From Leptodesmis sichuanensis A121 (GTDB lineage: Bacteria; Cyanobacteriota; Cyanobacteriia; Leptolyngbyales; Leptolyngbyaceae), in the NCBI RefSeq assembly GCF_021379005.1, contig NZ_CP075171.1, positions 2,976,001-3,040,000 on the forward strand: a stretch of DNA of 64,000 bases. Direction: 5' to 3'. Each line of letters starts with the position of its first letter. The first letter of the stretch is position 1. The notes under the pieces were generated by a model. It searched no databases. It was not told the DNA's origin and saw only the letters and a list, made by a program, of their open reading frames with translations. This document shows positions 1 to 17,699 of the stretch, in pieces. Made by a program: the position numbers and the translations under genes.

Positions 1-2577
1 CTCTACGACTTCGCTGGTTTCCCGTTGAATAGTTTGCACAATTTGTTCAATTTCCTGAGTGGCCGCTGCTGATCGGGCTGCCAGTGCGCCCACCTCCTCT
101 GCAACGACTGCAAATCCCTGCCCGTCTTCCCCTGCCCGTGCCGCTTCAATTCCAGCATTAATTGCCAGCAGGTTGGTTTGAGTGGCAATTTGATTAATTA
201 ACGACACGACTTTAGAGATTTCTTGAGAGGATTCACCTAATCGCTTCACCTTCTTCGCCGTTTCACCGATCGTTTCGCGGAGTTTGAGAATATTTTGTAC
301 CGTCAAATCCATGGCTACCCCACCTTCCTGGGCCATTTCAGAAGCCGTTTGGGCGACTTCTGCTGCCTGGGACGCACTCTCTGCCACCTGCTGAATCGAG
401 AACTTCATTTCTTCGACGGTTTGTAGTGTCAGATTGGTTTCTTCGGCTTGTTTTTGGGCATCTTCTGCCAGTTGCCGCATGGCCTGTTCGTTTTTGCCTA
501 AGGCCAGATTCACTTCCAGAGCCGACTCCTTCACCTGCGTCACAATCTGCCGCAGACTTTCCACAATAGAGTTAAAGAAGTCTGCCACCGTGCCAATTTC
601 TCCCGCCGTTACGTCTGCCCGCACGGTTAAATCACCCCTGGCGGCTCCTTCCACACTACTCAGCAGTTCTACCAGTTGTTCCTGCAGCAATCGGGTCTTC
701 TGCACTTGCTCTTGAGATAAACGTTCGGCCTGTAAACGGGCCTGTTCTTTTTGCTCAAACAGATCTACCTGCTCTAGGGCAAAGCTCAGTTCGATCGCTG
801 CTTGTCGCAGGAAATTCACTTCTGCCTCTTGCCAGGCACGGGGGCCAGAACATTGATGGACGCAGAGTAGTCCCAACAGGCGCTGATGCAGCAGGATCGG
901 GGCAACAATGTTCGCCTTGACTTCAAACGGCTCTAACTGGCCGATGTAACACAAATCTAGATTGGCTTCATAGATATTGGCAAGCGCCTGCACTCGCCCT
1001 CGACGATATTTTTCCACGTAGGAATTTACAAAGCAGGGATCGGTGATATTGGTTCCCAACGCAGTTGGGTATTCCTTGGCAACAGATTCGGCAACAACCG
1101 TACCCTGCCATTGCTCGTCAAACAAGTAAATAATCGTGCGATCAGCAGCAAGTAACTCCCGGATTTTTTGCAGCGCTAGGTTATAGACCATTTTGCGATC
1201 GCCTTGGCTGGCAGTGTGGGTGAGATTGCTATAAAACTGAGCTTGCTTGAGCGCTTCTGCCTGAGCTGATTGCAGAGTAGCAACTGTAGTTGTTAACTGA
1301 TTGAACCGTTGAGCCAAATCCTTTAGTTCAGGTGGCCCTGCTAGTTTCATCCTGGCATCCCAATTACCCGCCGCCACCTGATCGAGGGCAAAATTCAACT
1401 CACTGAATGCTTTCGACAGACGGCGGATGGTGATAATAGAGGCGGCGGAAATGCCCCCAGCCAGAGCTACCAGTAAGGCGGCTAACGCCCAAGTCCAGCC
1501 TTGACTGGCCAGTTCTTTTTGGGGCATGGCACCGACCGCAACCCAGTTACTGCCTGGAATTGTCGCCAGCAGATAGCGCTGATTCCCCTGCATCGAGACT
1601 GTGAGTAACCCCCGATCGCCATTGCCGTAGTCAAAACTCTGGATGGTCGGCTCCTCAGGTGGATTCTGAACTTGCAGTTGCTGCACCAGTTCAATCGCTT
1701 TTTGCGCGATCGGTGTGCCTCCCAGTACCTCGGAGGTGTCCTTCAGACCATCACTCGTCAAAGTTCTGATGGGTTTCATCAGGTTATTCTCAGCAGGGGC
1801 GAGAATTTGCACCTGCAGGGAACTTGAGAGGTTAGCCAGAGGCAACGTATGCAACGCCCGATCCAGATAATGCATCGGAATTCGACCTTTGACAGTCCCT
1901 AACCGTTGACCGGAATTCGGATCAGCGATCGCCTTAGCCAGATCAATCCCCATCACAGCACCGTCGCTATTAAACACGGGTTGAACCGCTTCCCCATTTT
2001 TCTGTACCTCCTGCCACCAGGCCGCACTGCGATGCACAAGTTGGGGATGCGGACGGTTAGAAGCAACATTCACGCCATGTTCTTCTGTGATCATCAAATC
2101 GGCAAACTGAGCCGCTTCCGCTTTGCGTTTCAGGTAATTATTCAGGTTGGCACTGGCAGGCAGTTGATGCCGTTTTTGCTGTTCTACCGTTGTGCCAGAC
2201 AGCCGATCTAATTGAGCGGCCTTCACATCTTTGCTGGTTTTCCGCGAGAACTCAACGATGGCCGGATCCGGTGCCACCAGCCGCGGCAATTTTTTCGCGT
2301 CATTCAACCGATCGCGAGTCACCCGTCCCAGAGTGATTGTCTGGTCTTGCAAATCTTGCTCAACCTGTTTGGCCTGTTGTTGTGCCGTCGCTTGATGATT
2401 CATCGCAACCGCTACTCCCAGAGGAGCTAATAACAACGGTAAGGCTCCCATTACCATCTCTCGGCGGAAAGGTACACTGGGCTGACTCGATGGCGGACTG
2501 GCAGGACTGGCTGCGATCGGGTGGGGGGGTGAAAATGACTCGGTAGAAGGCGAGGAATTAGACAAAGGAAGATTCAT
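1..2577 (-). CDS. pixJ: PixJ-like phototaxis receptor (MCP with cyanobacteriochrome GAF), 3' end outside window
   Basis: Membrane photoreceptor of a type IV pilus phototaxis pathway; it should signal to a CheA-like kinase through the CheW-like PixI. The frame is open for 859 codons from the ATG at 2577 to the left edge with no stop, so the C-terminus is missing. Domains in order: N-terminal TM near residues 60-80, extracytoplasmic sensor, second TM near 360-380, HAMP, a GAF domain (about 440-590), a second HAMP-like stretch, and the MCP signalling hairpin with the classical [20 protein letters not shown] tip. The GAF has a DPCF motif (Cys515) and a second Cys543 exactly 28 residues on, followed by Tyr544, then a VAPI strand and [10 protein letters not shown]. 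This is the layout of DXCF cyanobacteriochromes such as TePixJ. It is the last visible gene of pixGHIJ; pixL would be expected beyond the edge. Confidence 0.88.
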
Positions 2578-2735: not shown

Positions 2736-3233
2736 TTAAGGACTGCGTAATTTGGAAGATTGGACGATCGCGGCGGCATTCAGAACTAGCCCTATATTTT
2801 GCTCTTGAATTGCACAGCCCCGTAAATAAGCCTGCAAACTGGGAGGAACATGACCAGGGGGAGCCTGAATGCTTTCTGCTGAGAGCCAACACACCCCCTG
2901 AATTTGATGAACAGCCAGAGCCAGGGCGATCGTCTCTACACGGATGATGATCAGATCGTGCTGCCGACGACTGGCATCAAATCCAGCTAAGTTGAGAACT
3001 TGTGACAGATCAACGACCCACATGGCGCGACTCCGGCGGTTAATCAGCCCCAACAGGCAAGCGGGCATATTAGGCATGGGGGTGAGTCGCTGAGCAGGTA
3101 GGGCCAGGACTTCCTGTACCTGCAGCATCGGCAGTAAGCCCTCAGTGGTTGGCGTAATGTGGAACCGGAGAAAGGGATCTCCCAGTGGTTTTGGTGGTTG
3201 ATCGGGGAGTAAGGTGAGGGTGGCGGTATCCAT
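2736..3233 (-). CDS. pixI: PixI, CheW-like coupling protein
   Basis: A 165-residue CheW-domain protein that should bridge the receptor PixJ and the CheA-like kinase PixL. The central part shows the CheW pattern: a core beginning FRFHITPTTEGLLPMLQVQEV, then MPNMPACLLGLINRRSRAMWVVDLSQVL, the conserved 'LG-x-INRRG-like' loop and following strand. Its start lies 4 bp after the pixH stop, so the two are translationally linked. A 158 bp gap with a heptamer repeat separates it from pixJ. The gene order pixG-H-I-J matches the Synechocystis phototaxis operon, which supports the symbol more strongly than the divergent CheW sequence does. Confidence 0.8.
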   Translation of the reverse strand: MDTATLTLLPDQPPKPLGDPFLRFHITPTTEGLLPMLQVQEVLALPAQRLTPMPNMPACLLGLINRRSRAMWVVDLSQVLNLAGFDASRRQHDLIIIRVETIALALAVHQIQGVCWLSAESIQAPPGHVPPSLQAYLRGCAIQEQNIGLVLNAAAIVQSSKLRSP

Positions 3234-3237
3234 TGGT

Positions 3238-3603
3238 TTAGCCTGCTACAGTTTTAACAGCATGAATCAATTGTTCACTGGTGAAGGGTTTGGTCAGGTA
3301 CACATCCGCTCCCTGCCGCAATCCCCACAGCCGATCGATTTCCTGGGATTTTGATGTACAGATGATGATCGGTACCTTTTCCGTAATCGGATTTTTTTTA
3401 AGACTGCGGCAGAGTTCAAACCCGCTCATTTCTGGCATCACTACATCAGTAATGATCACATCTGGCTTCAGTGCGATCGCCTGATCCAAAGCCGCTTTTG
3501 CACTGCCTGTACCGATGACAATATATCCATTTTCCTGAAGGTAATAGCTGATTAACTCCATTTCTGAGGGAGTGTCATCAACAATTAAAACTGTACCTAC
3601 CAT
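3238..3603 (-). CDS. pixH: PixH, CheY-like response regulator
   Basis: A single receiver domain of 121 residues, with an acidic pair at the start (LIVDDTPSE), phospho-acceptor Asp53 in DVIITDVVMP, Thr/Ser in IICTSK and the conserved Lys in YLTKPF. It has no output domain, so it should act by binding a partner such as the pilus motor or by draining phosphate from PixL. I chose the ATG at 3603 because the domain starts directly after it; an ATG at 3630 would add nine residues. It sits between pixG and pixI on the same strand, as in the Synechocystis pix operon. Confidence 0.85.
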   Translation of the reverse strand: MVGTVLIVDDTPSEMELISYYLQENGYIVIGTGSAKAALDQAIALKPDVIITDVVMPEMSGFELCRSLKKNPITEKVPIIICTSKSQEIDRLWGLRQGADVYLTKPFTSEQLIHAVKTVAG

Positions 3604-3735
3604 CGCTATACCCTGCGCTTTGTTTATCATTGATCATTTGCCATGCGGTATTACCATCATCATTTGTCACTCGCCATTTATCTTTTGCAAAGAACTACTA
3701 ACCAATGATGAATGACCAATGGCGCATGAGACCCC

Positions 3736-4875
3736 TCACTTCAAATATTTGAAGACCATTTTCACCAGTTCTGCTCGGGTAAAAGGTTTGGTTAAGTAAC
3801 CAGATGCTCCTACCAGCTTTGCCTTCGCTCGATCAATAAATCCTGTATTGCCAGTAACCATGACGATCGGAGTATTTTTGAAGTTGGAATGCTTACGGAG
3901 CAGCGAACACAATTCATAGCCATCCAGATTGGGCATCCCCACATCTAACAAAATTAAATCTGGCTTGCAACGAATAATTTGCATCAGCGCTTTCAGTGGA
4001 TCATTGATCATGACAATGGAAAAATATTCTTGATCAAGAAAGGAATTGATCGCACTTAAAACCGTTGGACTATCGTCAATGCAAGCAACGGTATGACGTT
4101 TTCTGGCTACAGGAGGCAGCGTGATTTCCTTTGCTGTGTTTGCTGTTTCTTGATCTGCCCCTATAGATTTTGCGGGAGTTGTATTCGGTATGGTCTTGCT
4201 CTCTGGCTCCAGACTAAATAATTGAATGGGTTGAGGTTGCTGCCGCATCCGGGTCTGGCATTCGTCCACCAGAGCACGCAAGTCTAACTGACACAGGGAT
4301 GGAAAATCACTCAGGGTATCCTTCTCCAGAAATTCATGGCTGCCCTCAGTCAAAGCAAGAAACGATTCCAGCACTTCCTGGGCTAATGCTTCAACCAATT
4401 CAGCCACCTGCTCCTGATGCAAATATTGCTGTTCAACCAACCATTCAATCGCCTGATAATCAGCCGGAGTAGCCATGGAGGAGTTAACCAGGGAAGCACT
4501 AAATAGAGAGCGAACCTGTGCCCGAACCGCACTAACCAGAGTCGGCACCTGCTGACTGACTTGAGCCAGGTGGCGATCGAGCCGTTCAAAAGGATTTACA
4601 GAAGAAGTGGCAAAGGTGAGTTTCCCTGCTTCTAAATAAAACAGCCAAACGAGAGAACCACTGGTTACTCGCAAACAACCACTCGATTTCCGGCTTGTGA
4701 ATTGTACAAATAAACTCACTGGGTGAAATCTTTGTGGCCCTGAAGTACCAGCCATTGCTGCATTGTTCATAGGCATCCCTGGATAGAGTGTAGACAGTCC
4801 AGACGAAAATAGGGGATCTTGCTGCCGTTGGGACCAAACAAGGTTTTGCAGCGCAAGTTGCTGTTGAGGATCCAT
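3736..4875 (-). CDS. pixG: PixG, PatA-type PATAN/receiver protein
   Basis: First gene of the pix operon, 379 residues. The N-terminal half is the PATAN (DUF4388) domain, seen as SLFVQFTSRKSSGCLRVTSG followed by WLFYLEAGKLTFATSS. The C-terminal part from about residue 262 is a receiver with Asp311 in LILLDVGMP, Thr in VMVTGN and Lys in YLTKPF. PatA-type proteins are cyanobacterial response regulators used in heterocyst patterning and in phototaxis operons. The position upstream of a CheY, a CheW and a CBCR-MCP identifies it as the pixG orthologue rather than patA. The stop lies 106 bp before pixH. Confidence 0.82.
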   Translation of the reverse strand: MDPQQQLALQNLVWSQRQQDPLFSSGLSTLYPGMPMNNAAMAGTSGPQRFHPVSLFVQFTSRKSSGCLRVTSGSLVWLFYLEAGKLTFATSSVNPFERLDRHLAQVSQQVPTLVSAVRAQVRSLFSASLVNSSMATPADYQAIEWLVEQQYLHQEQVAELVEALAQEVLESFLALTEGSHEFLEKDTLSDFPSLCQLDLRALVDECQTRMRQQPQPIQLFSLEPESKTIPNTTPAKSIGADQETANTAKEITLPPVARKRHTVACIDDSPTVLSAINSFLDQEYFSIVMINDPLKALMQIIRCKPDLILLDVGMPNLDGYELCSLLRKHSNFKNTPIVMVTGNTGFIDRAKAKLVGASGYLTKPFTRAELVKMVFKYLK

Positions 4876-5118: not shown

Positions 5119-8100
5119 TCAGATGTACTTTACAGGGCTTGGGATCAGAGTGCTGACTTTTTTGATCAATTCCATGGTAGAAAATCCCTTGGTTAAGTAA
5201 TCGGTTGCCCCTAAGCGTTTTGCCTCATCAAACCATTCCTCCGATAAGCGGGAGGAAATGACCAGAATTGGAACGGGAATGCCGGTTTGGCGGCAGCGAT
5301 CGATCAAGGTAAAGCCATCCATATTGGGCATTTCGATATCTGTAATCATCAGGCTGGGATGGGGATGAACCTGCAGCCAGTTCCAGGCTTCCAGACCATC
5401 AGCACAGGTATGGGTGCGATAACCATACGTATTCAGGCTTACCTCAAGTCGTCGCCGCATCAGCGCCGCATCATCCACAATCAGAATGGATGCTGTCAGA
5501 TCATCGGCTGCGGCCCGATCGCCATCTGAGGCGCTGCTCAGGGGGGAATCCAGGGGCAATACCGCAGCACTGAGTATCTGTTCTGCCAGTTCCCGCGCTT
5601 GGAGTACCGGAACAAGAGAACCATCTGACTGTAAGCTGAGGCCAATTAATCCAACTGGAGCAATCAGGGGTGATGGTAACGGGTGGATAATCAGTTCGGT
5701 TTGCTCTAACAGTTCATCGGCTAATAGCCAGACATCGGACTGACCATCTGTGCCAGCAATGTTGAGGCAAACGGTGGTATCAGATGGAGGGCGTTGAGTA
5801 GAGTGCTGCTGCCAGTATTCCAGTAAGTCGATCGCTGGCAGGGATGCGATGTCATCGTGAACCCGCCATGAGTAAGCGCGATTTTCCTCCTCGGCTGGTG
5901 ATACTGTCAGATCGCTCCATAGTCTCATGGTCTTGATCCCTTCATCGGGAATCGCAAAGGTATAATGACCCGCCTGTAACAGGACACAGGGAATTAACAG
6001 GCGAGGCACTGGAAACTGGAGGCGAAATGTTGTTCCCGCACCTGGCTGGGTGTGGAGGCTGACTTGTCCACCCAGACTGGCAACCTGGGCTGCAACAACA
6101 TCCATGCCAATTCCCCGTCCAGAAATCTCGTTGACCTGATTCTGCGTACTGAAACCTGGTTGACAAATAACAGCCAGAAGTTCAGCAGGGGTTTGGGTGC
6201 TCGTCAGGGGTAATCCTAACGCTTCAGCCCTCGCTTGAACCGCTTGAGCATCGATGCCACGCCCATCATCCCGAATCTCAAGCTGGAATTGATGGCCCTG
6301 CCGTTGTAAGGACAATACAATTTGCCCCTGGGCGGCTTTACCCTGAGCAACCCGATCGCTGGCTGATTCCAGACCATGATCATAAGCATTCCGAATCAAG
6401 TGCAGTAAGACAGGCTCCAGGTTGCGAGCAATGCCCACATCCAGTTCCGTTTGCTCTCCCTGAACCAGCAGACGGGCAGGCTTGCCATAACGAATCGTCA
6501 GATCGCGCAGAATGGCTTTTGCCCGGAAGCCCAAATTTTGGAATGGCACCAGCCGACTGCCCTCGATCGTGGTTTGCAGTTTCAGCACACTATTGTCAAC
6601 ATCTTGCAGATACTCAGTGACCTGTTGGGAGAGTTTTCCGGTTTCTGCGCCAACTTCAGACAAGCGTAAGCTGATTTCTAGCAGGCGGTTAATGGCGGTA
6701 TATCCCTGCCGATATCGTTCCGGGGTTGGGCCAGACTGGGCACTATTTCTCAATTCTTCTAACAGCGTATAGTCATCCTGGATCTGGCGCAGATGAGTAA
6801 TGTACTGGATCCCTTCTTGAGCCAACGTTATCAACTGGGTGATCTGACTTTGCAACGCCTGATAAACCCCTTGCGTGGTTCGCAATCCAATTACCGTTTC
6901 GACAATGTGCTGGGCGGAGTGATCCAGTTTCTCTAACGGGACGGGAATTTGCACCGTTTCCGGCATTTCCAGCGATCGTTCAGTCAAGCGTACTAAGGAA
7001 GATGATGCATCGTCCTGGATTGGAGTGGGTTGCTGGAGCATGAATGGCTGGGGGAGTTTCGCATCTCCAGCCGCAGGCCGTTCTGCCTGTTCAACAGCAG
7101 GTTGTTCCGAAATTGGGGTCAGTGATTCAGCCGCGTCATCCACATCAGGCAGCGAACCTAACCATGCGGCAATATCACGAGCTTCAATATCACAGATTTC
7201 CAGATCACCCGTCTCAATATTACCCATCTCGATCGGCGCCGAAAGCTTTTCTAGCCAGTCGAGGTTGAGGGAAGAGGTCTGGCTGGTCGTTTGAGCCAAA
7301 CTATTAGCGGCCCAAGAGCCTTCACCCAGAAAAGAATCCATAATCCCAAGAACCTCTGGATTTCCAGGTGGTTCTCCTCCCTGGCCATTATCCAGTTCAT
7401 CGGCGAAGATAGGAAACTCAAAAGGGATAGGGTTACCCCCTTGTTTTGCACAGGTTTTCAGCGCTTGAAAGAGCGGTTTCCACTGCGATCGCCAGGCTGA
7501 GTTAGTGGGATGTGCCAACAAAATCTGGGCTTGCTCCAGCAGGGCTGTCCATCCCGGAGCCAGTTGCAACTCTGCACCAATCTGGGTCAGTTGCTCCAGG
7601 ATGTTGCAGGCAATCTGAAGTGTACTGTCGGGGACTCTACCGTGTTCGGGTAACTGCTCCAGCGCAATTTCCAACTCCAGAACAACCAGATCCAGCCCCT
7701 GTTCCGCAAACTCTTGATGCAGTTGGCCGATTTCATCCCACTGGGGCAGGTATCGCGATCGGATGTCCTGATGTAATGCTTGAATTCGCTGGAGAATGGG
7801 ATCGATGCCTCCCGGTTGGGCAGACTCCAGGGTGCCTGTCAGTAGCTCTCCAGCTTCCAGTAAGATCTGGCTTAAATGCCCATCGCTTAAGTCAGGAGCC
7901 TGTTCTAAATACCGTAGATCCGAAAGTACATCCTCTAATGCTGTGGCAACAGATAGTGCCGCTTCTGCGCCAACGGTAACGGCTCCACCTTTAATCGTGT
8001 GAATACAACGATAGAGTTCCTGAATGTCAGTTCGCCACGCCGATACCTGGAGATACTGAGCAATCTGGCTATATTTTTGGAGATAGGTTTGGGTATCGAC

Positions 8101-8187
8101 GACAAATAAACTGCGCAGCTCTTGCTGGAATTGAGCATCGGCAAACGCGGCAAAGCTTTGAGTCGGATCAATTTCTGGAATTGACAT
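5119..8187 (-). CDS. pilL: PilL-like hybrid CheA histidine kinase
   Basis: A 1022-residue CheA-type kinase and the last gene of the second chemotaxis-like operon. Order: N-terminal Hpt domain with His63 in CIHTIKGGA, a long helical and acidic linker, dimerisation region, HATPase_c with N-box HLIRNAYDHG, G1 DDGRGID and G2 GRGIGMDVV, a CheW-like adaptor domain (starting LLIPCVLLQAGHYTFAIPDE), and a C-terminal receiver with Asp950 in LMITDIEMP. The kinase-CheW-receiver fusion is the TaxAY/PilL/HmpE type of cyanobacteria, which controls pilus motility or hormogonium development. It starts 79 bp after the pilJ2 stop on the same strand. Confidence 0.85.
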   Translation of the reverse strand: MSIPEIDPTQSFAAFADAQFQQELRSLFVVDTQTYLQKYSQIAQYLQVSAWRTDIQELYRCIHTIKGGAVTVGAEAALSVATALEDVLSDLRYLEQAPDLSDGHLSQILLEAGELLTGTLESAQPGGIDPILQRIQALHQDIRSRYLPQWDEIGQLHQEFAEQGLDLVVLELEIALEQLPEHGRVPDSTLQIACNILEQLTQIGAELQLAPGWTALLEQAQILLAHPTNSAWRSQWKPLFQALKTCAKQGGNPIPFEFPIFADELDNGQGGEPPGNPEVLGIMDSFLGEGSWAANSLAQTTSQTSSLNLDWLEKLSAPIEMGNIETGDLEICDIEARDIAAWLGSLPDVDDAAESLTPISEQPAVEQAERPAAGDAKLPQPFMLQQPTPIQDDASSSLVRLTERSLEMPETVQIPVPLEKLDHSAQHIVETVIGLRTTQGVYQALQSQITQLITLAQEGIQYITHLRQIQDDYTLLEELRNSAQSGPTPERYRQGYTAINRLLEISLRLSEVGAETGKLSQQVTEYLQDVDNSVLKLQTTIEGSRLVPFQNLGFRAKAILRDLTIRYGKPARLLVQGEQTELDVGIARNLEPVLLHLIRNAYDHGLESASDRVAQGKAAQGQIVLSLQRQGHQFQLEIRDDGRGIDAQAVQARAEALGLPLTSTQTPAELLAVICQPGFSTQNQVNEISGRGIGMDVVAAQVASLGGQVSLHTQPGAGTTFRLQFPVPRLLIPCVLLQAGHYTFAIPDEGIKTMRLWSDLTVSPAEEENRAYSWRVHDDIASLPAIDLLEYWQQHSTQRPPSDTTVCLNIAGTDGQSDVWLLADELLEQTELIIHPLPSPLIAPVGLIGLSLQSDGSLVPVLQARELAEQILSAAVLPLDSPLSSASDGDRAAADDLTASILIVDDAALMRRRLEVSLNTYGYRTHTCADGLEAWNWLQVHPHPSLMITDIEMPNMDGFTLIDRCRQTGIPVPILVISSRLSEEWFDEAKRLGATDYLTKGFSTMELIKKVSTLIPSPVKYI

Positions 8188-8266
8188 AAATGAAAGCCAA
8201 AGATTCAGAGAACCTGCTGAACTGGATAGAGCGTCAGAGTTGGAATCGAACCGTGGTTAAATAGGA

Positions 8267-10813
8267 TCAGGCACCGTCATCCGGTGGAGACTGAACTGTA
8301 GAGGCACCGTTTTGTATCGCGCGATCGGATCCAGACCTTTCTGCCGATAACTCTGATTTGCTCAGAGGGAAAGAATAATGTTCAGGGGATAGGTGAAAGA
8401 ACTCAACATTTCGCAGCAAAGTCCGTGCTAATTGATCCATTTGTTGCGCTTGTTCTTTGGTGATATCGGCTTGACTCAAGGTTTCGCCAGAGATCGTAGA
8501 GATATTCCGAACTGATTGCAGGGTCGTTTGTGCCGCATTTGCAATCGTCTGGCTGGATTGTGCCACTTGCTGTCCCATTTTAGCGACCTGTCCACTCACA
8601 GATTGAATCGTGTTGAAGGCTTGTTGAGATTGCTCAACCCCTACCATGAAATGTTCTACCTGCTGAGTAATGCCCTCAACATCATAGTTAAGCCCCGATA
8701 CCACCGTTTGCAATTGATCTGTGCGTTGCTGCAGGAGAGCCAGACTGTCACTGGTTTGAGTGGACAATTGACTCACCTGACTGGCGATCGTCTCAAATTC
8801 ACGGATAATCACCGCCATCTGTTCCGGATCCTGTTGGACTGCAGCCCGGTTAGACAACATCGCTGCATTCACCGCCAGAATCCGGGTCATGGCGGCAATC
8901 CGTTTCTGATCCTTCACAAATTGCGTTGCCAATTCTACGTAATTGGTCAGCGTTTGGGTTCGTTTGACGATTTGGTCTGTTTCTTGCTGCAGCCCCTGAA
9001 TGCCCTGAGTCATGGCTGTAATTTCTTGTTGTCCCTGATCAATGGCAGCCTGGGTGAGTTGCACGGCTTCATCCGTTGCGATCGCTTGCGATTTTGCCGC
9101 TTGCGCCTGGTTATTCACTTCTTCCATCAACGTTTGTACCTGGCTGACCAATTGGAATTGCTGCTGCACCCGGTCTGCCACCACCACCGCCAGTTGTTCC
9201 AGGTAAGCCGTTCCATGAGTCACCCGTTCGGCTGCCACCAACACTTCTGCCATCACCTGCCCCAATCGGAAAATCAGGCGGTTCAGGGTATCGCCCACCA
9301 AGCCTGTTACCCGCGCACTCACTTCCGCTTCGATCGTCAGGTCGCCATCTTCTACCGCAGACACCACATCCAGCAAATGCTCAACTTCGTGCTGCAGCGC
9401 CTGACTTTCCTCGTACAGGGTTGCCGTTCGTTCTGCTACCCGCTGTTCCAGTTCTTTGTTGATGGTTTCCAGGGCGGTAAAGGTTTCTCGCAGTTGTTGC
9501 ATCATCTGGTTAAACGATCGCGACAATACCCGCAATTCACCAAATCCTTCGACGGCCACAGTTTGATCCAGGTTCCCACTCGCGATCGCCTGAGAAGCCT
9601 GACTTAAGCGCACCAGAGGATCGGTTAGCCAGCGGGATGCAAGCAGCCCCAACAGGGTGGAAAGTACCAGTGCTGCACTGCACAGGGCGATCGTGTTGCG
9701 GGTATTGGCATTAATCTGCGCCATAAAATCAGACTCTGCCGTAACTACCACAATTCGCCAGTCTAGGCCCCATTTATCCTTCCAGGGCATGACCTTGACA
9801 AAGTAGCGTTCTCCCTTAAAGTCAAAGCTCCTGAGTTCGCTGTCCTTAATATTTCCAGGTACTCCAAAGGATGTTTTCAAATATTCAGCGGTCGCCCGGA
9901 TCAGAGGATTAGAACTTTTTTCAGCGGACACTCGCTGCGGTTTCCCCGCTTTTAGTGTGTAAGCTGGCTCCTTCCCTGAACTGGCCACAATTAAACCATT
10001 TTGCTCGACAATGAATACTTTGGCAGACGGACTGATATTCAATGTGTTGAGAAAATTACTAATCTGGGTCAGAATTAAATCAACCCCAATCACACCAAGA
10101 AATTCTCCGCCAGTGCTATAAACCGGGAAACTAGATGAAATTGACATAATTTCAGGCTTGTCTTCCCATTGGTAGATCTGAGTCCAGAGGGGATTACCCA
10201 ACCGTGCCGCTTCAGCATACCAGGCTTCTTCTCGGGGATCGTAGGTTTTAACGGCATCTAATTTGGTACGGTTACCCTGCCGATCGGTTTGATACACATG
10301 CAGCTTACCCTGGGTCGCTGACTGAGACACCTCATTAATCAGCAAATTGCCATTATCTAACCGTTCTACACCGATAAATTCACCGTCTTTATTGGCAAAG
10401 TTGCTATAGCCAATATTAAAAACCTTCATTTGTTTCCAGAAGTATTTTCCCAATCGGTTGAAATCCTGCAGATCAATCATGCCCAGATTGATCGCATCCA
10501 GGTTGATCTGGTTAATTTGATGGGGCACACTCAAGTAAGCATCCAGGTGAGTTGAAACACGCTTACCGGCCTCTGTTTGCAATTGCCCGGCCAGTTCGTT
10601 AACAGCCTGCTGGCCATTACGAATAGATAGCCAGCCCGTGAGTCCAACAGCGGCGACGATCGGTACAACAAACGCTGTCACAGTCAGAACACGAATACTC
10701 ACTTTGTCTCGCAGATCCAATGCCGCAACTCTGGATGTTTTGGGCGGTATTGAGATGGAAGTGGTCTGGGAAAGATGAGAACCAACAGTTGATTCTGGTT
10801 GCAGGGTTGTCAT
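8267..10813 (-). CDS. PilJ-like methyl-accepting chemotaxis protein (intact tandem copy)
   Basis: An intact receptor of 848 residues from the ATG at 10813; a TTG 27 bp upstream (10840) is the alternative start. It has TM1 near residue 45 (TAFVVPIVAAVGLTGWL), a dCache extracytoplasmic sensor, TM2 (IALCSAALVLSTLLGLLA), HAMP, a coiled coil, a second HAMP and the MCP hairpin. The hairpin tip is the non-canonical PilJ/HmpD type (MTRILAVNAAMLSNRAAV, then DPEQMAVIIREFETIASQV) rather than the textbook tip. It follows the disrupted pilJ1 and precedes pilL, so it is probably the only working receptor of this operon. The ligand is unknown. Confidence 0.85.
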   Translation of the reverse strand: MTTLQPESTVGSHLSQTTSISIPPKTSRVAALDLRDKVSIRVLTVTAFVVPIVAAVGLTGWLSIRNGQQAVNELAGQLQTEAGKRVSTHLDAYLSVPHQINQINLDAINLGMIDLQDFNRLGKYFWKQMKVFNIGYSNFANKDGEFIGVERLDNGNLLINEVSQSATQGKLHVYQTDRQGNRTKLDAVKTYDPREEAWYAEAARLGNPLWTQIYQWEDKPEIMSISSSFPVYSTGGEFLGVIGVDLILTQISNFLNTLNISPSAKVFIVEQNGLIVASSGKEPAYTLKAGKPQRVSAEKSSNPLIRATAEYLKTSFGVPGNIKDSELRSFDFKGERYFVKVMPWKDKWGLDWRIVVVTAESDFMAQINANTRNTIALCSAALVLSTLLGLLASRWLTDPLVRLSQASQAIASGNLDQTVAVEGFGELRVLSRSFNQMMQQLRETFTALETINKELEQRVAERTATLYEESQALQHEVEHLLDVVSAVEDGDLTIEAEVSARVTGLVGDTLNRLIFRLGQVMAEVLVAAERVTHGTAYLEQLAVVVADRVQQQFQLVSQVQTLMEEVNNQAQAAKSQAIATDEAVQLTQAAIDQGQQEITAMTQGIQGLQQETDQIVKRTQTLTNYVELATQFVKDQKRIAAMTRILAVNAAMLSNRAAVQQDPEQMAVIIREFETIASQVSQLSTQTSDSLALLQQRTDQLQTVVSGLNYDVEGITQQVEHFMVGVEQSQQAFNTIQSVSGQVAKMGQQVAQSSQTIANAAQTTLQSVRNISTISGETLSQADITKEQAQQMDQLARTLLRNVEFFHLSPEHYSFPLSKSELSAERSGSDRAIQNGASTVQSPPDDGA

Positions 10814-10859
10814 AGGGCAATTCTGAGTAGGGTTAGGCAAGGGTGAGCAGCGTCATGCA

Positions 10860-12408
10860 TCATTGAGGAACTGTTTCGGCGGGAACGGTTACAGTGATGT
10901 CTGCGATCGCAGACGACTTATTTTGAGCCGCCTCCATTGGATTAGCATCAGGATCGTCAGGTAACTGGAAGAATTGCACCGTTTGCAGGAGTTGTGTTGC
11001 TAAAGCGTCCATTTGCTCCGACCTTTCCCGGGCAACCTGGGTGAGTGTGGCTGTTTTGTCGGCCAGTTCAGTAATCTCTTGCATCACCTGTGCTGTCGCT
11101 TGGGTGGCTTGTATAATTTGACGACTGAACTGATTCACTGCCTCACCCGCCTGTACTGCTTCACCTGTGATGTTCTGTACCGTCTGGAAGACCTGGCTGG
11201 ACTGCTCAACACCCCTTGTAAACTGTCGCACCAGTTCACCCATACTTTGAACATCCTCATCCACCGATGCAACCGCACTATGGATTTGGGCACTTCGTTG
11301 TTCCAGATTCGTTAATCCTTCATTGGTTTGTTGGGCCAATTTGTTAACCTGATCGGCAATGGAATCAAATTCACGAGCGACCACTACAAACTGTCTGGGA
11401 TCGCGCTGCTCTGAAGCTCTGGCCGCCACCAGCGAGGCATTCAGCGACAGGGTTTGGGTAATAAAGGCAATCTGGCTTTGGTTTTGCACAAATTGATCCG
11501 CTAAACCCACAAATTCTCCAAGGGTTTTCATCCGCTGAACAATCCGGTTTGTCCCTTCTTGCAAAACAGTAATGCCTTGCGTCAATGCATCGATCGCTGC
11601 CTGCCCCCGCACCAATGTATTCGATACAGTTTGCAGCGATTCATTGGATATTTTGACCCGCTCTGCAGCACCCTGAGCCGCTTGTTCCACCTGTCCCGTT
11701 AAGCTCAACACCTGAGTAACGGCTTGAGCCTGCAAATCAGCATTATCAGCAACGGTTTCAATCAGGGCTGTTTGTTGGTTGGCAGATTCCGATACCTGAT
11801 GCGCGGCGACTAACACCTGGTTCAACACATAGGAGAAACGTTCGATTAATCGGTTAAAGGTATCTGCCACCAGGCCAGTAGCCCGATCGCTGACTTGCGC
11901 CTGAGTAGTTAAGTTTCCTTCTTCCACATCCGAAACAACATCCAGCAACTGGCTGACTTCCTGCTGCAAAAATTCACTTTCAAGCACAATGGCCACCAGG
12001 CTAGCCACCCCAGTCACAAAAGTTTGTTCATTGGCCTGCCAGACTCGCGCCGTCTGCCCCTGTTCACATTGAACAAAGCCCACCGTCCGGTTAGCGATTT
12101 GAATTGGCAAGGTCAACAGTGCTTGGGTATCCGACAACAGCAAGCCATCGGCCAGTAAGGGGTGGATCGTTGAGTCTGCGTGGACGTTGTTGACGGCGAC
12201 AAAGGGTTGGGACTGCAGGTTCTGAAAATACTCCAGCACCTCAGCGGTATGAATCAACTCTCCATGAGAGTGCTGTTGCAGGCTCTGATTATAGCGATCG
12301 AGACAGGTCAGATGACTGCGATCGGGACTGTAAAGCCAAATACTCACTCGTTCTAATTGTAGAGTTTTGGCGATCGCCTCTGTAAAGCAGCCCGCAGCGG
12401 CTTTCAGG
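10860..12408 (-). pseudogene. pilJ1, C-terminal part (GAF-HAMP-MCP) downstream of the insertion sequence
   Basis: C-terminal remainder of the interrupted receptor. Joined to the N-terminal part, the frame reads ...VVQGNLK then AAAGCFTEAIAKTLQLERVS without a shift. This half holds a GAF domain (SIWLYSPDRSH onward) that lacks the cyanobacteriochrome Cys motifs, a HAMP-like stretch and a PilJ-type signalling hairpin (LSLNASLVAARASEQRDPRQ). A soluble product of up to 495 residues could start at the GTG at 12347. It would lack the sensor and both membrane segments. Confidence 0.85.
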
Positions 12409-12435
12409 GGGTGCCAAGCGGAAAAAATGGGTAGG

Positions 12436-13038
12436 TTAGGCCACCGCTAAGTCACTCGCATTGGGCTCGACAATTTCTAGCCGCTTGGCATCGAGTTTGG
12501 CAGTCAAAATTTCAGCACAGAAGGTGTCCCATCGTCCTGCCGCCCAATAACAGCGACCTTGAAGCAGAATTTCTGCATGTTCAGGCAACCAAAACTTGCC
12601 ATTTCCCTTGAGCCGCAGGTTGACCACCTGGCGGATTAGACTCTCAATGGCTCCACTGCCAATCGGTAGATTCATTGCCTGTACCTGCCCATAGGCAAAG
12701 CGCTGGGGTTGGTCATTAAAGTAGTTGAATGGGGTTGTCATTGCCTTGCGTTGTTGGCGCGTGTGTTTCTGAGCCAGAATCTGCTGCATCTGTGTCAGGA
12801 GTTGCGCCAACTTACCCCGTTTGAGGCTAGAACGAGCCGCCTCGAACCATTTCCGTGCCACTTGAGCTTTGCTAAAAGCCGCCTCAGCAAAATCCTTCAA
12901 ATGCTGACTGGCATGGTAAAAGTCAATCAACTCAATCAGTCGGTCTTTGGGCAGGCCCAAGCGTTCCAGAAGGGCGGGAATCCGGTGCCAAATCCAAGGA
13001 GCGCCATCGGCTAGCAGCAACACTTGCTGGGCATGCAC
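12436..13038 (-). CDS. Transposase, C-terminal frame
   Basis: About 200 residues covering the catalytic half: LLADGAPWIWHRI, IDFYHASQHL and the terminal GSGAIESLIRQVVNLRLKG block found in ISKra4-like and UPF0236-like transposases. It lies in the -1 frame relative to the upstream ORF and overlaps it by 28 bp. Continuous sense across the overlap (VKLG then VVHAQQVLLL) is obtained if the ribosome slips back one base at the GGGG run. This could be programmed frameshifting or a one-base inactivating deletion. Confidence 0.75.
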   Translation of the reverse strand: MHAQQVLLLADGAPWIWHRIPALLERLGLPKDRLIELIDFYHASQHLKDFAEAAFSKAQVARKWFEAARSSLKRGKLAQLLTQMQQILAQKHTRQQRKAMTTPFNYFNDQPQRFAYGQVQAMNLPIGSGAIESLIRQVVNLRLKGNGKFWLPEHAEILLQGRCYWAAGRWDTFCAEILTAKLDAKRLEIVEPNASDLAVA

Positions 13039-13958
13039 AACCCCAATTTGACCAGATACATCTCCAGCAGGCTCATGAATCCTTCGATACCGGTAAAGGT
13101 GCCGTCATTAATGACCGGTAATTTGACTGTATTGATGCGCTGGCCCTGCTCATCGATGGCATAGAGGGTGAATAGTTTGGGTTCTCGCCAATGCCCCCGA
13201 TACCCCCGCCGCTTGGTCGCCCGTCGTCTACCCCGTTTGTTGTATCGCAACCGGGTGCGCCCGCCATCGACACTCAACCCCACTCTCTGTCCCTCAAAGG
13301 TCTGGCCAGTGGGCAGTTGGCCTTGCTGCAACTGAGCCAGCCACTGGTCGGTTAACGCCAGGCCGATTTGACCAAAACCATAGGTCAGTCGCACCACCCG
13401 TTTCTCACTCAACTCAATGCCCCATTGCTGCAACTGCTCAGTCGCTTGCGCAAAGGACCTCGACAGCATCCCTGCCGCTGCAACCACGCTCCAAACCAGG
13501 GGACTGACTTGCTCTTCCAGTCCCAACCAACGCAGCAGGGGATAGAATCCCTGTCCCTGGGATGGCCCCCGTTGACCGGCTTTCCGCTTGCCTTTCCGCT
13601 TCTGCTGGGAGACCCCATTGAGAATGTAGCCCACCTTGAACTCAACGACGACATTGCCTACGGTTAATACCTTGACCCGGCGTTTGCCTTGACTGCGAGC
13701 CATGAAGCCTCGTGATGAGCGGGTCCGTTGGTTGGCTTCTCGTTGGCTATCTGGATGCTCACTGAGTTCGTGCAGCAGCAGGGCAATCACCTGGCCGGCT
13801 AGCACCAGAGCCGCGGCGCGGATTGCCTCCTCCCGTGCTTTCAACGCCACTCCATCCCAACTGGAAATTTCCCCCACGGCCAGCAGTGGGGCAATGGTTT
13901 GCTTAAATGTTTCAATGGCTTGGTTGAGATCCAGGGTTGCAGGTATATTCATATTCAC
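13011..13958 (-). CDS. Transposase, N-terminal frame
   Basis: 315 residues: a helical N-terminus, a basic stretch (GFMARSQGKRRVKVLTVG), and the first catalytic region (RVGLSVDGGRTRLRYNKRG). After MYLVKLG the zero frame ends in a short unrelated tail, CMPSKCCC, before a stop. The remainder of the enzyme is encoded in the overlapping downstream frame, so the functional protein would be near 510 residues. Confidence 0.75.
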   Translation of the reverse strand: MNMNIPATLDLNQAIETFKQTIAPLLAVGEISSWDGVALKAREEAIRAAALVLAGQVIALLLHELSEHPDSQREANQRTRSSRGFMARSQGKRRVKVLTVGNVVVEFKVGYILNGVSQQKRKGKRKAGQRGPSQGQGFYPLLRWLGLEEQVSPLVWSVVAAAGMLSRSFAQATEQLQQWGIELSEKRVVRLTYGFGQIGLALTDQWLAQLQQGQLPTGQTFEGQRVGLSVDGGRTRLRYNKRGRRRATKRRGYRGHWREPKLFTLYAIDEQGQRINTVKLPVINDGTFTGIEGFMSLLEMYLVKLGLCMPSKCCC

Positions 13959-14069
13959 TAGAGACAGGATGTTTTTTCACTCTGCACCGATCATTGTGCA
14001 TATCCTGTCTTTTCTCAGCTTTTGCTGCCTCTCCTCAAAGCCATCTTTTTCGCATCGCACCCCCTCTGA

Positions 14070-15420
14070 CTTTCAGGTTGCCTTGCACAACGGCTTCATT
14101 GCGAGCCAGATCTGACAGGACATCATTCTGTTCCTTCAGTCGGGCTTCATTCTGGCGTAACGTTTCCAGCAGGATCTGCAACTGATCCGCCATCTGGTTA
14201 ATATTGGTGCCCAGAACCGCTAATTCATCTTCTCCCTTGACCACAACCCGCGTATCCAGCTTGCCTTCACCAATTTGTTTCACGGCTTGTGCAGCAGCCA
14301 GAATCGGACGCACGGCTCGGTTAGTCAAATAAGCAGCCAGCAAAGTGGCAATCAGGGCGGTTGAACCAGATCCAATCAAAATCACCAGCAACTCTTGCCG
14401 TTGTGCGGCAAATGCTACAGACAAATCCGTTGCCAGCGCCACACTCCAATTCAGGTCGGGTAATCCTGCCAGTTGCGTTGGCGGCGCATAGGTCACAAAT
14501 TGGGTGGCCGATAGCCTCGAATGCTGAGTCACAATACTGCCAGCCTGCTTTGCCTTGGTCAGTGTCTCAATTCCGGGAAAAATGGTTTCAATCCGTTGTT
14601 CCTGATGGATTGTGTTTTCCTTAATCGTCGCGCTAGATCCATTTGATTTTGTCTGGTTCGTATACTGACCTTCTGGCCCGTAGAAGGCTTTTCCAGACGC
14701 ATTAATCAGGTAGTACGATCGCCCTGCTTGAGGTTTTAAGGCTGGAATCAATTCGCCCAGTCGATTGACTGGAATACGAGCGCGAACTGTACCAATAATT
14801 TCTCCGGTTTCCTGGTCACGCACGGGTGCCGCTGTGTAGATACTAAAGATGCCGGAGCTCGTTGAGATCAAAGGCTGGCTGATAACAGGTTGTCGAGTGC
14901 GGAGTGCCTCTTTGATGTAGCTGCGATCGCTGTGATTTCCTAAAGGTGGCACTCCTTTCTCTTGAGCAACGCCGATCGGATCACCGTTCAGGTCAAAAAC
15001 CGCAATGCTGTTATACACCGGATAGGCTTTCAAAAATTGTTCCAGTGCTTTTGATTTCTCCCTGGCCGTCGCTGTTTCCCGCCGCCGAGAATTCGTAAAA
15101 ATATCCAGATTTGAGATGGCCTTAATGTCACCAAAACGTTCCCACATATATTGATTAAGGTGACTTTGCACACCACTGGCCAGCAGAGTTTCATGTTTCT
15201 CAAGCTCGGCGCGGCTCACCTCACGGACGACTAGGAACGCCGTTGTCCCCACAATAAAGACGGGTAAAGTACTCATCGCAACAGCTAGCAATATTCCTTT
15301 GACACGCAGGCTCAAGCTGCGCCAGCGAAGGGAGGAGGGGCGCTTTGAACCTGGATAAAATTTTGTCTGGCCCGCACTTGTAGAGGATTGCATGGCTGAA
15401 TTGACAACAGAGGGCTGCAT
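14070..15420 (-). pseudogene. pilJ1, N-terminal part (sensor and membrane half) upstream of the insertion sequence
   Basis: N-terminal half of a PilJ-type receptor. The ATG at 15420 is preferred because AAGGAG lies just upstream of it; the open frame extends back to 15504 and overlaps pilI. It contains TM1 (GILLAVAMSTLPVFIVGTTA), a dCache sensor with a SDRSYIKEAL-type PAS-like motif, TM2 (LLVILIGSGSTALIATLLAA) and HAMP, then a coiled coil. The native sequence stops at NLK, where the insertion sequence begins; the frame then reads 11 foreign residues to a stop at 14035. A truncated membrane sensor without a signalling domain could still be made. Confidence 0.85.
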
Positions 15421-15494
15421 AGATCTCCTTAGGCTAATGTTGTGCAATGGCATTCCGAATTGGATGGGGGACTGGGGCTTGACCCTCCAGATGT

Positions 15495-15950
15495 TTATCG
15501 ACATGGTTGCCAGATATGACTCGGTACATCTGAGAGCTGGAACACACGCGGTTTGGATAACGGTTGGGCTGTAGGGCTACTCACTACTTCCTCAACAACA
15601 ATGCCGATGCCAGCCAACTGATGGGTAGCCTGACCCAGGTAGATCACTGTGAGCGTTTCTTGCATTGCCCTGAATCGCTTATCCTGATCCAGTGCTTCTG
15701 ATAGCAAAACGTGGGCTGAAATTAAGGAAATAACCTGACCTTGACGATAAATTAGTCCGAGTAGCATTGGGTCATAAAAGGGTAAGGACAAAATCTTCGA
15801 TCGCTCCACCAACAGAATTTCAGCCACCCAGTTAGAAGGGAACGCCAGTTGCTGTTGCCCCACCCGAGTAAGAATGTAGCGGCTTTGTAAAGAGGCTAAA
15901 GGAAGCAGGGTTGCCTCCGGATCACGAGGTGCATCGATATTGATATCCAT
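15495..15950 (-). CDS. pilI: PilI-like CheW coupling protein
   Basis: 151 residues with a CheW fold: SRYILTRVGQQQLAFPSNWVAEI, the LLGLIYRQGQVISLISAHVL loop, and a C-terminal strand pair around GIGIVVEEVV. It would connect the PilJ-type receptors with the PilL kinase. It lies 123 bp after pilH. Its end overlaps the longest reading of pilJ1 by 10 bp but not the preferred pilJ1 start at 15420. Confidence 0.8.
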   Translation of the reverse strand: MDINIDAPRDPEATLLPLASLQSRYILTRVGQQQLAFPSNWVAEILLVERSKILSLPFYDPMLLGLIYRQGQVISLISAHVLLSEALDQDKRFRAMQETLTVIYLGQATHQLAGIGIVVEEVVSSPTAQPLSKPRVFQLSDVPSHIWQPCR

Positions 15951-16073
15951 AAGGATTTTGAGTACTTAATTCAGTCAGCAGGCAGGTGGGATAAACGTTA
16001 GATGATCGGTCTTTTGTCCTTGTGTCCTTAGCCCCTTGTCCCTGGTAAGGAACTCATCAGCAATGACAAATAG

Positions 16074-16430
16074 CTAAATTTTTTGTAAGGCTTGTTCAAG
16101 ACGCTCTCGCGAAACGGGTTTGGTCAGATAGTCATTTGCACCAGCACGGTTGAGACCGTAATTGATTTCAACAGGAGTAGTTTTACTGGAACAGACAATC
16201 ACATACTGGTCGCTTGTTTGTTGATTCAATCGTAGTTCTCTCAGGAATTTATAGCCATCTTTTCCAGGCATGACAATATCGAGAAAGATAGACGAATAAT
16301 GGCCCGTTTGTAGCTTTTCAACTATTCCTACTGTACTTTCATAGGCTTCAACTTCATGCCCCATTTCTTCCAGTAAAGCCATCAAAAAGTGGCGATCGAC
16401 AGCACTATCATCAATAATTAAAAAACGCAT
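16074..16430 (-). CDS. pilH: PilH-like CheY response regulator
   Basis: A stand-alone receiver of 118 residues: acidic pocket LIIDDSAVDRH, phospho-acceptor Asp51 in IFLDIVMPG, Ser in CSSK and Lys in YLTKP. A strong ribosome site, GGAGGAAAT, lies directly before the ATG. It is the second gene of the operon, 69 bp after pilG, and has no output domain. Confidence 0.83.
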   Translation of the reverse strand: MRFLIIDDSAVDRHFLMALLEEMGHEVEAYESTVGIVEKLQTGHYSSIFLDIVMPGKDGYKFLRELRLNQQTSDQYVIVCSSKTTPVEINYGLNRAGANDYLTKPVSRERLEQALQKI

Positions 16431-16499
16431 AGATTTCCTCCTAAATTAAACCTATTTCCAAGTTCAATAATGTCTGCTGGCCGGTGCATGGAATAGCTT

Positions 16500-17699
16500 T
16501 TAACTTAAACTTTCGATCTGATGTGATGAATGAGGTGGCACCATTTCTGTCAACAATGAGCGAAGTTCTGTACAAAATTGAGATATTTCATGGGATGCCA
16601 GAGGTTTACTTAAGAAACGACAACCACTCCAGCGCGCTCGCCAGTTATTAGACAAAGTTTTTTCGGCAGTTAACATCACTAAAGGAACAGTCACTAATTC
16701 AGAGTGACGGCGAATTTTTTTGACCAGATCGAAGCCAGTAATACCAGGCATATTGATGTCCAGAAAGATGACAGCAGGATGGGAAGTCGCCAGGGCTTGC
16801 AGAGCTTCTTCTGGATCCAGGAACGATCGCACCGTATATCCCCAAGTTGTTACCAAATTCTCAAATTGTTTCAACATTAAAGGAGAATCATCAATAATAA
16901 AGATTGCGCGATCGGCTGCATGATTAGGTGCTGATAGAGTAACCAGGTTTTCCTTAATCAAATTGGCAAAAAATATTGCTACCTCTAGTGAATCTTGAGC
17001 CAGACTATACGCAATTTCATTAATTGTCTTGCCATTAGCGACTAACAACTTCAAGCGCTGTTTCTGCTCATCCGTTAATTGAGAGGTGTTGGCAGACTCC
17101 CAATTTAGGGCAGGTACACTGTCCATTGGCACTATAGGTTGTAGCTTTTGCCACCAGAGTTGCCGCTCTTTGGCCTTAACCAATAAATCCTGGATTGCAA
17201 ATCCCAGAATTGGAGCTTGAATTTCTAGCTGAGAAAATGGGAGAAATTTTGCCTGCCCTGAATATTGAAGTAAATAACTATCAAAATCCGCTAGAATTTT
17301 TAGCTGTAATGCCTGCTCCAGTTCCTCTGAATTAATTAGGTTCAGGTGGTATAGTTTCTGTAGCAGAGCAAGAAATAAATTGGATTGTGCCTCCTGTTCT
17401 GCTTGAGCAAATTGTTGCTCCAACGTCAGGATAATCTGTTTTACATCCGTACTATTGAGACGAGCAACATAGCGTTGCAGTGTCTTCAGAAACTCCCTCC
17501 AGGAAATCTGTTGATTTCCCGAAAAAACGACCCGTCCCTGAGATAAACCGAGATACCACGGCTCGATCGGATCAGCATCCTGTTGGTCAGTAAATTCAAA
17601 CAACCAATATCCTGTGAGATTATCTGTGGATAACTGGCTCAACCTGTGCGGTAGCTCATGGGGGCGAAATTGAAAGCTATAGGTTTCTAGTGCTGCCAT
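16500..17699 (-). CDS. pilG: PilG-like PatA-type PATAN/receiver protein, first gene of the operon
   Basis: 399 residues. The N-terminal part is PATAN-like (GYWLFEFTDQQD, then WYLGLSQGRVVFSGNQQISW), followed by a helical region and a receiver from about residue 265 with Asp314 in VIFLDINMPG, Thr in VMLTAEK and Lys in FLSKP. It heads the PatA, CheY, CheW, MCP, CheA gene order shared with Synechocystis pil (tax3) and Nostoc hmp loci. The 440 bp upstream should contain the operon promoter, but I could not fix a -10/-35 pair. Confidence 0.8.
   Translation of the reverse strand: MAALETYSFQFRPHELPHRLSQLSTDNLTGYWLFEFTDQQDADPIEPWYLGLSQGRVVFSGNQQISWREFLKTLQRYVARLNSTDVKQIILTLEQQFAQAEQEAQSNLFLALLQKLYHLNLINSEELEQALQLKILADFDSYLLQYSGQAKFLPFSQLEIQAPILGFAIQDLLVKAKERQLWWQKLQPIVPMDSVPALNWESANTSQLTDEQKQRLKLLVANGKTINEIAYSLAQDSLEVAIFFANLIKENLVTLSAPNHAADRAIFIIDDSPLMLKQFENLVTTWGYTVRSFLDPEEALQALATSHPAVIFLDINMPGITGFDLVKKIRRHSELVTVPLVMLTAEKTLSNNWRARWSGCRFLSKPLASHEISQFCTELRSLLTEMVPPHSSHQIESLS

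Follow-up and report, generated by a model that had tools for sequence, protein, structure and literature searches.

The pixJ locus

The 64,000-nucleotide stretch of Leptodesmis sichuanensis A121 DNA analyzed here (the window) opens inside pixJ, a reverse-strand gene that reaches its stop codon 300 bases to the left of the window (L170:9701-12577). The full-length product of 958 amino acids carries Pfam matches to HAMP (residues 383 to 430), GAF (463 to 601; 64 bits), and the methyl-accepting chemotaxis protein (MCP) signaling domain (739 to 923). The combination of HAMP, bilin GAF, and MCP signaling domains in a single predicted protein is that of a PixJ taxis receptor. A Pfam search of the protein returned no domain match for residues 1 to 382. 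By eye, this N-terminal part (window positions 1432 to 2577) has two probable membrane segments that enclose about 300 residues, and it may form an unrecognized outer sensor domain.

The neighboring genes encode PatA-like, CheY-like, and CheW-like proteins (Table 1), and downstream of pixJ, just left of the window, lies the gene for a 1,000-amino-acid CheA with Hpt, HATPase, CheW, and receiver domains. These genes, which we take to be pixG, pixH, pixI, and pixL, respectively, are arranged with pixJ as in a pix phototaxis operon. The genome also encodes a PcyA equivalog (361 bits; cutoff, 206), and as this is the only bilin reductase match, phycocyanobilin (PCB) is the expected chromophore.

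Table 1. Features of the pixJ region, in window positions
Feature	Position	Strand	Evidence or remark
pixJ	1..2577	-	ATG at 2577; open at window start; 859 of 958 codons inside the window
Bilin-binding GAF as modeled, PixJ residues 455-605	763..1215	-	PDB phmmer, AlphaFold, overlay
DPCF motif with second Cys515 (= TePixJ Cys494)	1030..1041	-	Cys515 codon at 1033-1035
Canonical chromophore Cys543 (= TePixJ Cys522)	949..951	-	Alignment and overlay
Tyr544 (= TePixJ His523 = miRFP670nano Tyr87)	946..948	-	Alignment and overlay
CheW-like protein (pixI-like)	2736..3233	-	Pfam PF01584, E 2.8e-23
CheY-like single receiver (pixH-like)	3238..3630	-	Pfam PF00072, E 3.1e-28
PatA-like regulator, DUF4388 plus receiver (pixG-like)	3736..4875	-	Pfam PF14332 and PF00072
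CheA-like gene, second chemotaxis-type cluster	5119-8187		
dCache MCP gene, second cluster	8267-10840		
Split taxis receptor gene, dCache-HAMP-GAF-MCP, second cluster	10860-15504	-	
CheW-like gene, second cluster	15495-15950		
Receiver protein gene, second cluster	16500-17699		

A second chemotaxis-type cluster (5119-17699) directly adjoins the pix operon. Its split receptor gene is interrupted at about 12409-14069 by an insertion element with 25-nucleotide inverted repeats (12406-12430/14041-14065; 84%) and two overlapping open reading frames that lack Pfam matches. The 8-base direct repeat CTTTCAGG flanks the element at 12401 and 14070, and once the element is removed, a single frame reads across the junction.

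Correspondence of the PixJ GAF domain with TePixJ

DXCF cyanobacteriochromes bind a bilin covalently, form a reversible bond between their second Cys and C10 of the bilin, and absorb blue light in the dark state. Isomerization of PCB to PVB is typical of the group but not universal. The initial annotation had assigned the PixJ GAF domain to these receptors, and the assignment is supported by its sequence and pocket residues, by the structure model, and by the surrounding operon. In a phmmer search of the PDB, the domain aligned without gaps to TePixJ (3vv4; E 1.4e-41), with DPCF falling on DPCF and Cys-Tyr on Cys-His. Cys515 and Cys543, which like Tyr544 lie within positions 940 to 1050, are spaced 28 residues apart as had been noted, exactly as are Cys494 and Cys522 of TePixJ, and both occupy bilin-binding positions, with Tyr544 on His523.

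An AlphaFold model of residues 455 to 605, built from 35 aligned GAF domains, has a mean pLDDT of 89.4 and a pTM of 0.85. Overlays on cyanobacteriochrome structures gave Z scores of 20 to 26 overall. On TePixJ (4glq), the model overlays with a Z score of 26.1 and an rmsd of 1.4 over 149 aligned residues; because the two ranges (model residues 3-151 and TePixJ residues 436-584) are equal in length, this overlay is gap-free as well. It places model residues C61, C89, and Y90 on TePixJ residues 494, 522, and 523, respectively. The best overlay was with miRFP670nano (6mgh; Z score of 26.3, 150 of 150 residues), with which TePixJ is tied within 1 Z unit, and Tyr544 superposes there on Tyr87. The correspondence of Cys515, Cys543, and Tyr544 with the TePixJ positions is far beyond chance.

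TePixJ (3vv4, 4glq, 4fof, 2m7u, and 6p58) thus shares with this receptor the DXCF Cys, the 28-residue spacing, the fold, the receptor type, and most pocket residues, at about 45% identity between the GAF domains. Residues retained are Asp492, Pro493, Cys494, Phe495, Arg507, Cys522, Gln526, Leu527, and Asn535 (TePixJ numbering). The two proteins differ at His523 (here Tyr544), His498 (here Ser), and Trp499 (here Tyr). In TePixJ crystals, the latter two are among the contacts of the B-ring propionate, and His523 shifts upon illumination (PMC6955287). A GAF fold with a DXCF second Cys and the canonical Cys indicates, from sequence and model together, a predicted DXCF cyanobacteriochrome.

Cys-Tyr is common among DXCF GAF domains

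The initial annotation had singled out the Tyr that follows the chromophore Cys in place of the usual His. The substitution itself is real, but it is ordinary. A pattern covering the DXCF-to-Cys stretch gave 668 matches in 170 of 194 sampled Cyanobacteriia genomes, and about a quarter of these (158/668, in 98 of the 194 genomes) read Cys-Tyr. Within the window's own family, Cys-Tyr accounts for 27 of 76 matches and occurs in 16 of 20 genomes; in the genome itself, four of the five DXCF GAF domains with the 28-residue spacing are Cys-Tyr. We therefore rejected the idea that Cys-Tyr is rare or diagnostic. The pattern fixes the DXCF-to-Cys distance and an intervening Gly-Arg, so that other spacings are missed. 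The counts include chance matches, for which a reversed-pattern control gave 10 in one search and 1 in the Tyr-selective search, and at least two Cys-Tyr matches (G474 and G462:C6:3638099) look by eye unlike GAF domains.

Among the matches listed, 30 of the 668 have a codon at this position whose second base is not A, and 9 of these resemble cyanobacteriochrome GAF domains by eye (7 Cys-Leu and 2 Cys-Phe). Of the remaining 480, those read in their loci are Cys-His. Rare DXCF-type GAF domains with Cys-Leu (loci L142, L145, L155, L156, L165, and L167) include DDCF and DHCF types, and those with Cys-Phe are found at L140 and L151. A red/green-type GAF elsewhere in the same genome (L008; C1:2133068-2133580) combines WQDTYL with Cys-Tyr and has one in-frame TGA within the GAF.

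Of 135 DXCF GAF domains read individually, a set from which short-flank rows and duplicates were left out, 51 have Tyr after the canonical Cys; this proportion is not a frequency, because two of the searches behind the set were selective, one for His or Tyr and the other for Tyr. Together with the two Cys-Phe and seven Cys-Leu cases, these domains mean that His, although frequent and replaced here by Tyr544, does not define membership in the group. Judging from these sequences, Tyr often occurs naturally in place of His at this site, and Tyr544 does not point to a novel receptor type.

His/Tyr changes on the GAF tree

For a tree of 136 GAF rows, the residue after the canonical Cys was left out of the alignment. 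At least 26 changes between His and Tyr map to this tree, compared with a mean of 41.3 (range, 33 to 49) for shuffled labels. Counting well-supported branches only leaves 11 independent pairs, which is the safer number since 58 of the 133 inner branches are unsupported. Closely related domains can differ at this residue, as do two Okeania GAF domains (L069, Tyr; L072, His) only 0.126 changes per site apart. The 13-row group that contains this PixJ consists of 11 Tyr and 2 His rows; Tyr in this receptor group is thus not simply random drift. Across 343 tests on the 11 well-supported pairs, which have little power, no position convincingly covaried with the His/Tyr change (best, 3.8 versus 0.2).

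The nearest tree rows are PixJ-like GAF domains of Leptolyngbyaceae and of genome G486 (L054, L055, L056, L057, and L102), which are up to 60% identical to this domain and all Cys-Tyr. L054 to L057 each have two such GAF domains in the DNA examined, whereas this PixJ has one. Tandem arrays of two to five DXCF GAF domains are present at the related loci L054, L055, L056, L057, L058, L065, L075, and L078, and Cys-His and Cys-Tyr domains are mixed within L065 and L075.

One tentative and on balance doubtful idea is that the residue after the chromophore Cys is a recurrent one-base (CAY/TAY) tuning switch in DXCF receptors. Many independent His/Tyr flips would then adjust how fast phototaxis receptors revert in the dark, or where they peak, and this Leptolyngbya-type PixJ group would have settled mainly on Tyr.

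Expected effect of Tyr544

We consider this protein to be a blue-absorbing two-cysteine (DXCF) PixJ phototaxis receptor in which Tyr544 provides modest tuning with no change of class, a reading to which we assign a probability of roughly 80%. PCB made by PcyA would bind the GAF domain through Cys543, and a second bond, from Cys515 to the bilin C10, would produce a dark state that absorbs blue light. Light would break the Cys515-C10 bond and produce a longer-wave, green-like state, and the signal would travel via the HAMP and MCP domains and then the CheW-, CheA-, and CheY-like Pix proteins to type IV pili. Tyr544 would most likely stack on the bilin, with a modest shift in band position, thermal stability, and fluorescence.

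The closest published comparisons come from other lineages. SPI1085g3 C448S_CY and NpF2164g5 share the Cys-Tyr motif but belong to the red/green lineage and are not DXCF proteins; moreover, the former was measured with biliverdin, whereas this PixJ is expected to carry PCB. Changing Cys-His to Cys-Tyr in biliverdin-bound SPI1085g3 C448S moved the dark state about 14 nm to the blue and made dark reversion about 12 times slower, and some Cys-Tyr red/green-type proteins showed no photoconversion (PMC9378818). miRFP670nano, engineered from NpR3784, likewise has Tyr after its chromophore Cys but differs in being non-DXCF, biliverdin binding, and engineered not to switch; in its structure, Tyr87 pi-stacks on the bilin (PMC6336887). 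The published BV4 set was considered as a further precedent and rejected, as AnPixJg2 (3w2z) and AnPixJg2_BV4 (5zoh) are both Cys-His and the His-to-Tyr change in the BV4 chain lies three residues before the Cys (another lies upstream), a different site from Tyr544. A literature search, with subscription papers mostly outside its reach, found no test of His versus Tyr in a DXCF protein. A modest change of color or kinetics is likely in this PixJ; by analogy with biliverdin-binding red/green-type GAF domains, a strong effect of Tyr544 is conceivable. The shifted color proposed in the initial annotation is thus plausible from these analogies (PMC9378818 and PMC6336887), in modest form only.

That annotation also raised altered PCB-versus-PVB chemistry. 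Tyr544 could block or slow the conversion of PCB to PVB, so that PCB is kept and light yields a yellow-to-orange state in place of a green one. The color of DXCF photoproducts does vary with the bilin they carry (PMC6628166), and Tyr would alter the packing over the bilin (PMC6336887). Yellow light also works via PixJ in the filamentous cyanobacterium Phormidium lacuna (PMC13383048), a comparison by light color. However, PMC11284453 attributes the isomerization to the second Cys together with other residues close to rings A and D and does not implicate the Tyr544 site, and close orthologues such as the Okeania pair differ in having His or Tyr, with no clearly coupled residue. We therefore regard a retained PCB as unlikely, and this portion of the earlier interpretation is unsupported.

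Less probable still is that Tyr544 favors biliverdin or yields a poorly switching, fluorescent holoprotein like the engineered Cys-Tyr proteins. With His changed to Tyr, SPI1085g3 C448S rose to 65% biliverdin binding and gained a sevenfold higher fluorescence yield (PMC9378818), and H87Y is among the 18 changes in miRFP670nano (PMC6336887). These precedents, however, are red/green-type scaffolds that were adapted to biliverdin by evolution or mutation, and they lack the second Cys, which should yield a blue photocycle here; with PcyA in the genome, PCB should be made. We give very little credence to the view that the GAF has lost its photoreceptor function and that Tyr marks its decay: two TePixJ propionate-contact residues are changed, but the two Cys are retained, as are the remaining pocket residues that were compared, the open reading frame and operon are intact, and Cys-Tyr relatives are widespread. 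Overall, the initial annotation was right in its observation and partly supported in its interpretation.

These results remove a false lead, as DXCF receptors with Cys-Tyr are nothing unusual. If His/Tyr swaps do alter photocycle timing or color, close orthologues would be ready-made natural pairs for gauging the contribution of this bilin-facing residue, and this PixJ would be a convenient Tyr-type example with a known operon context.
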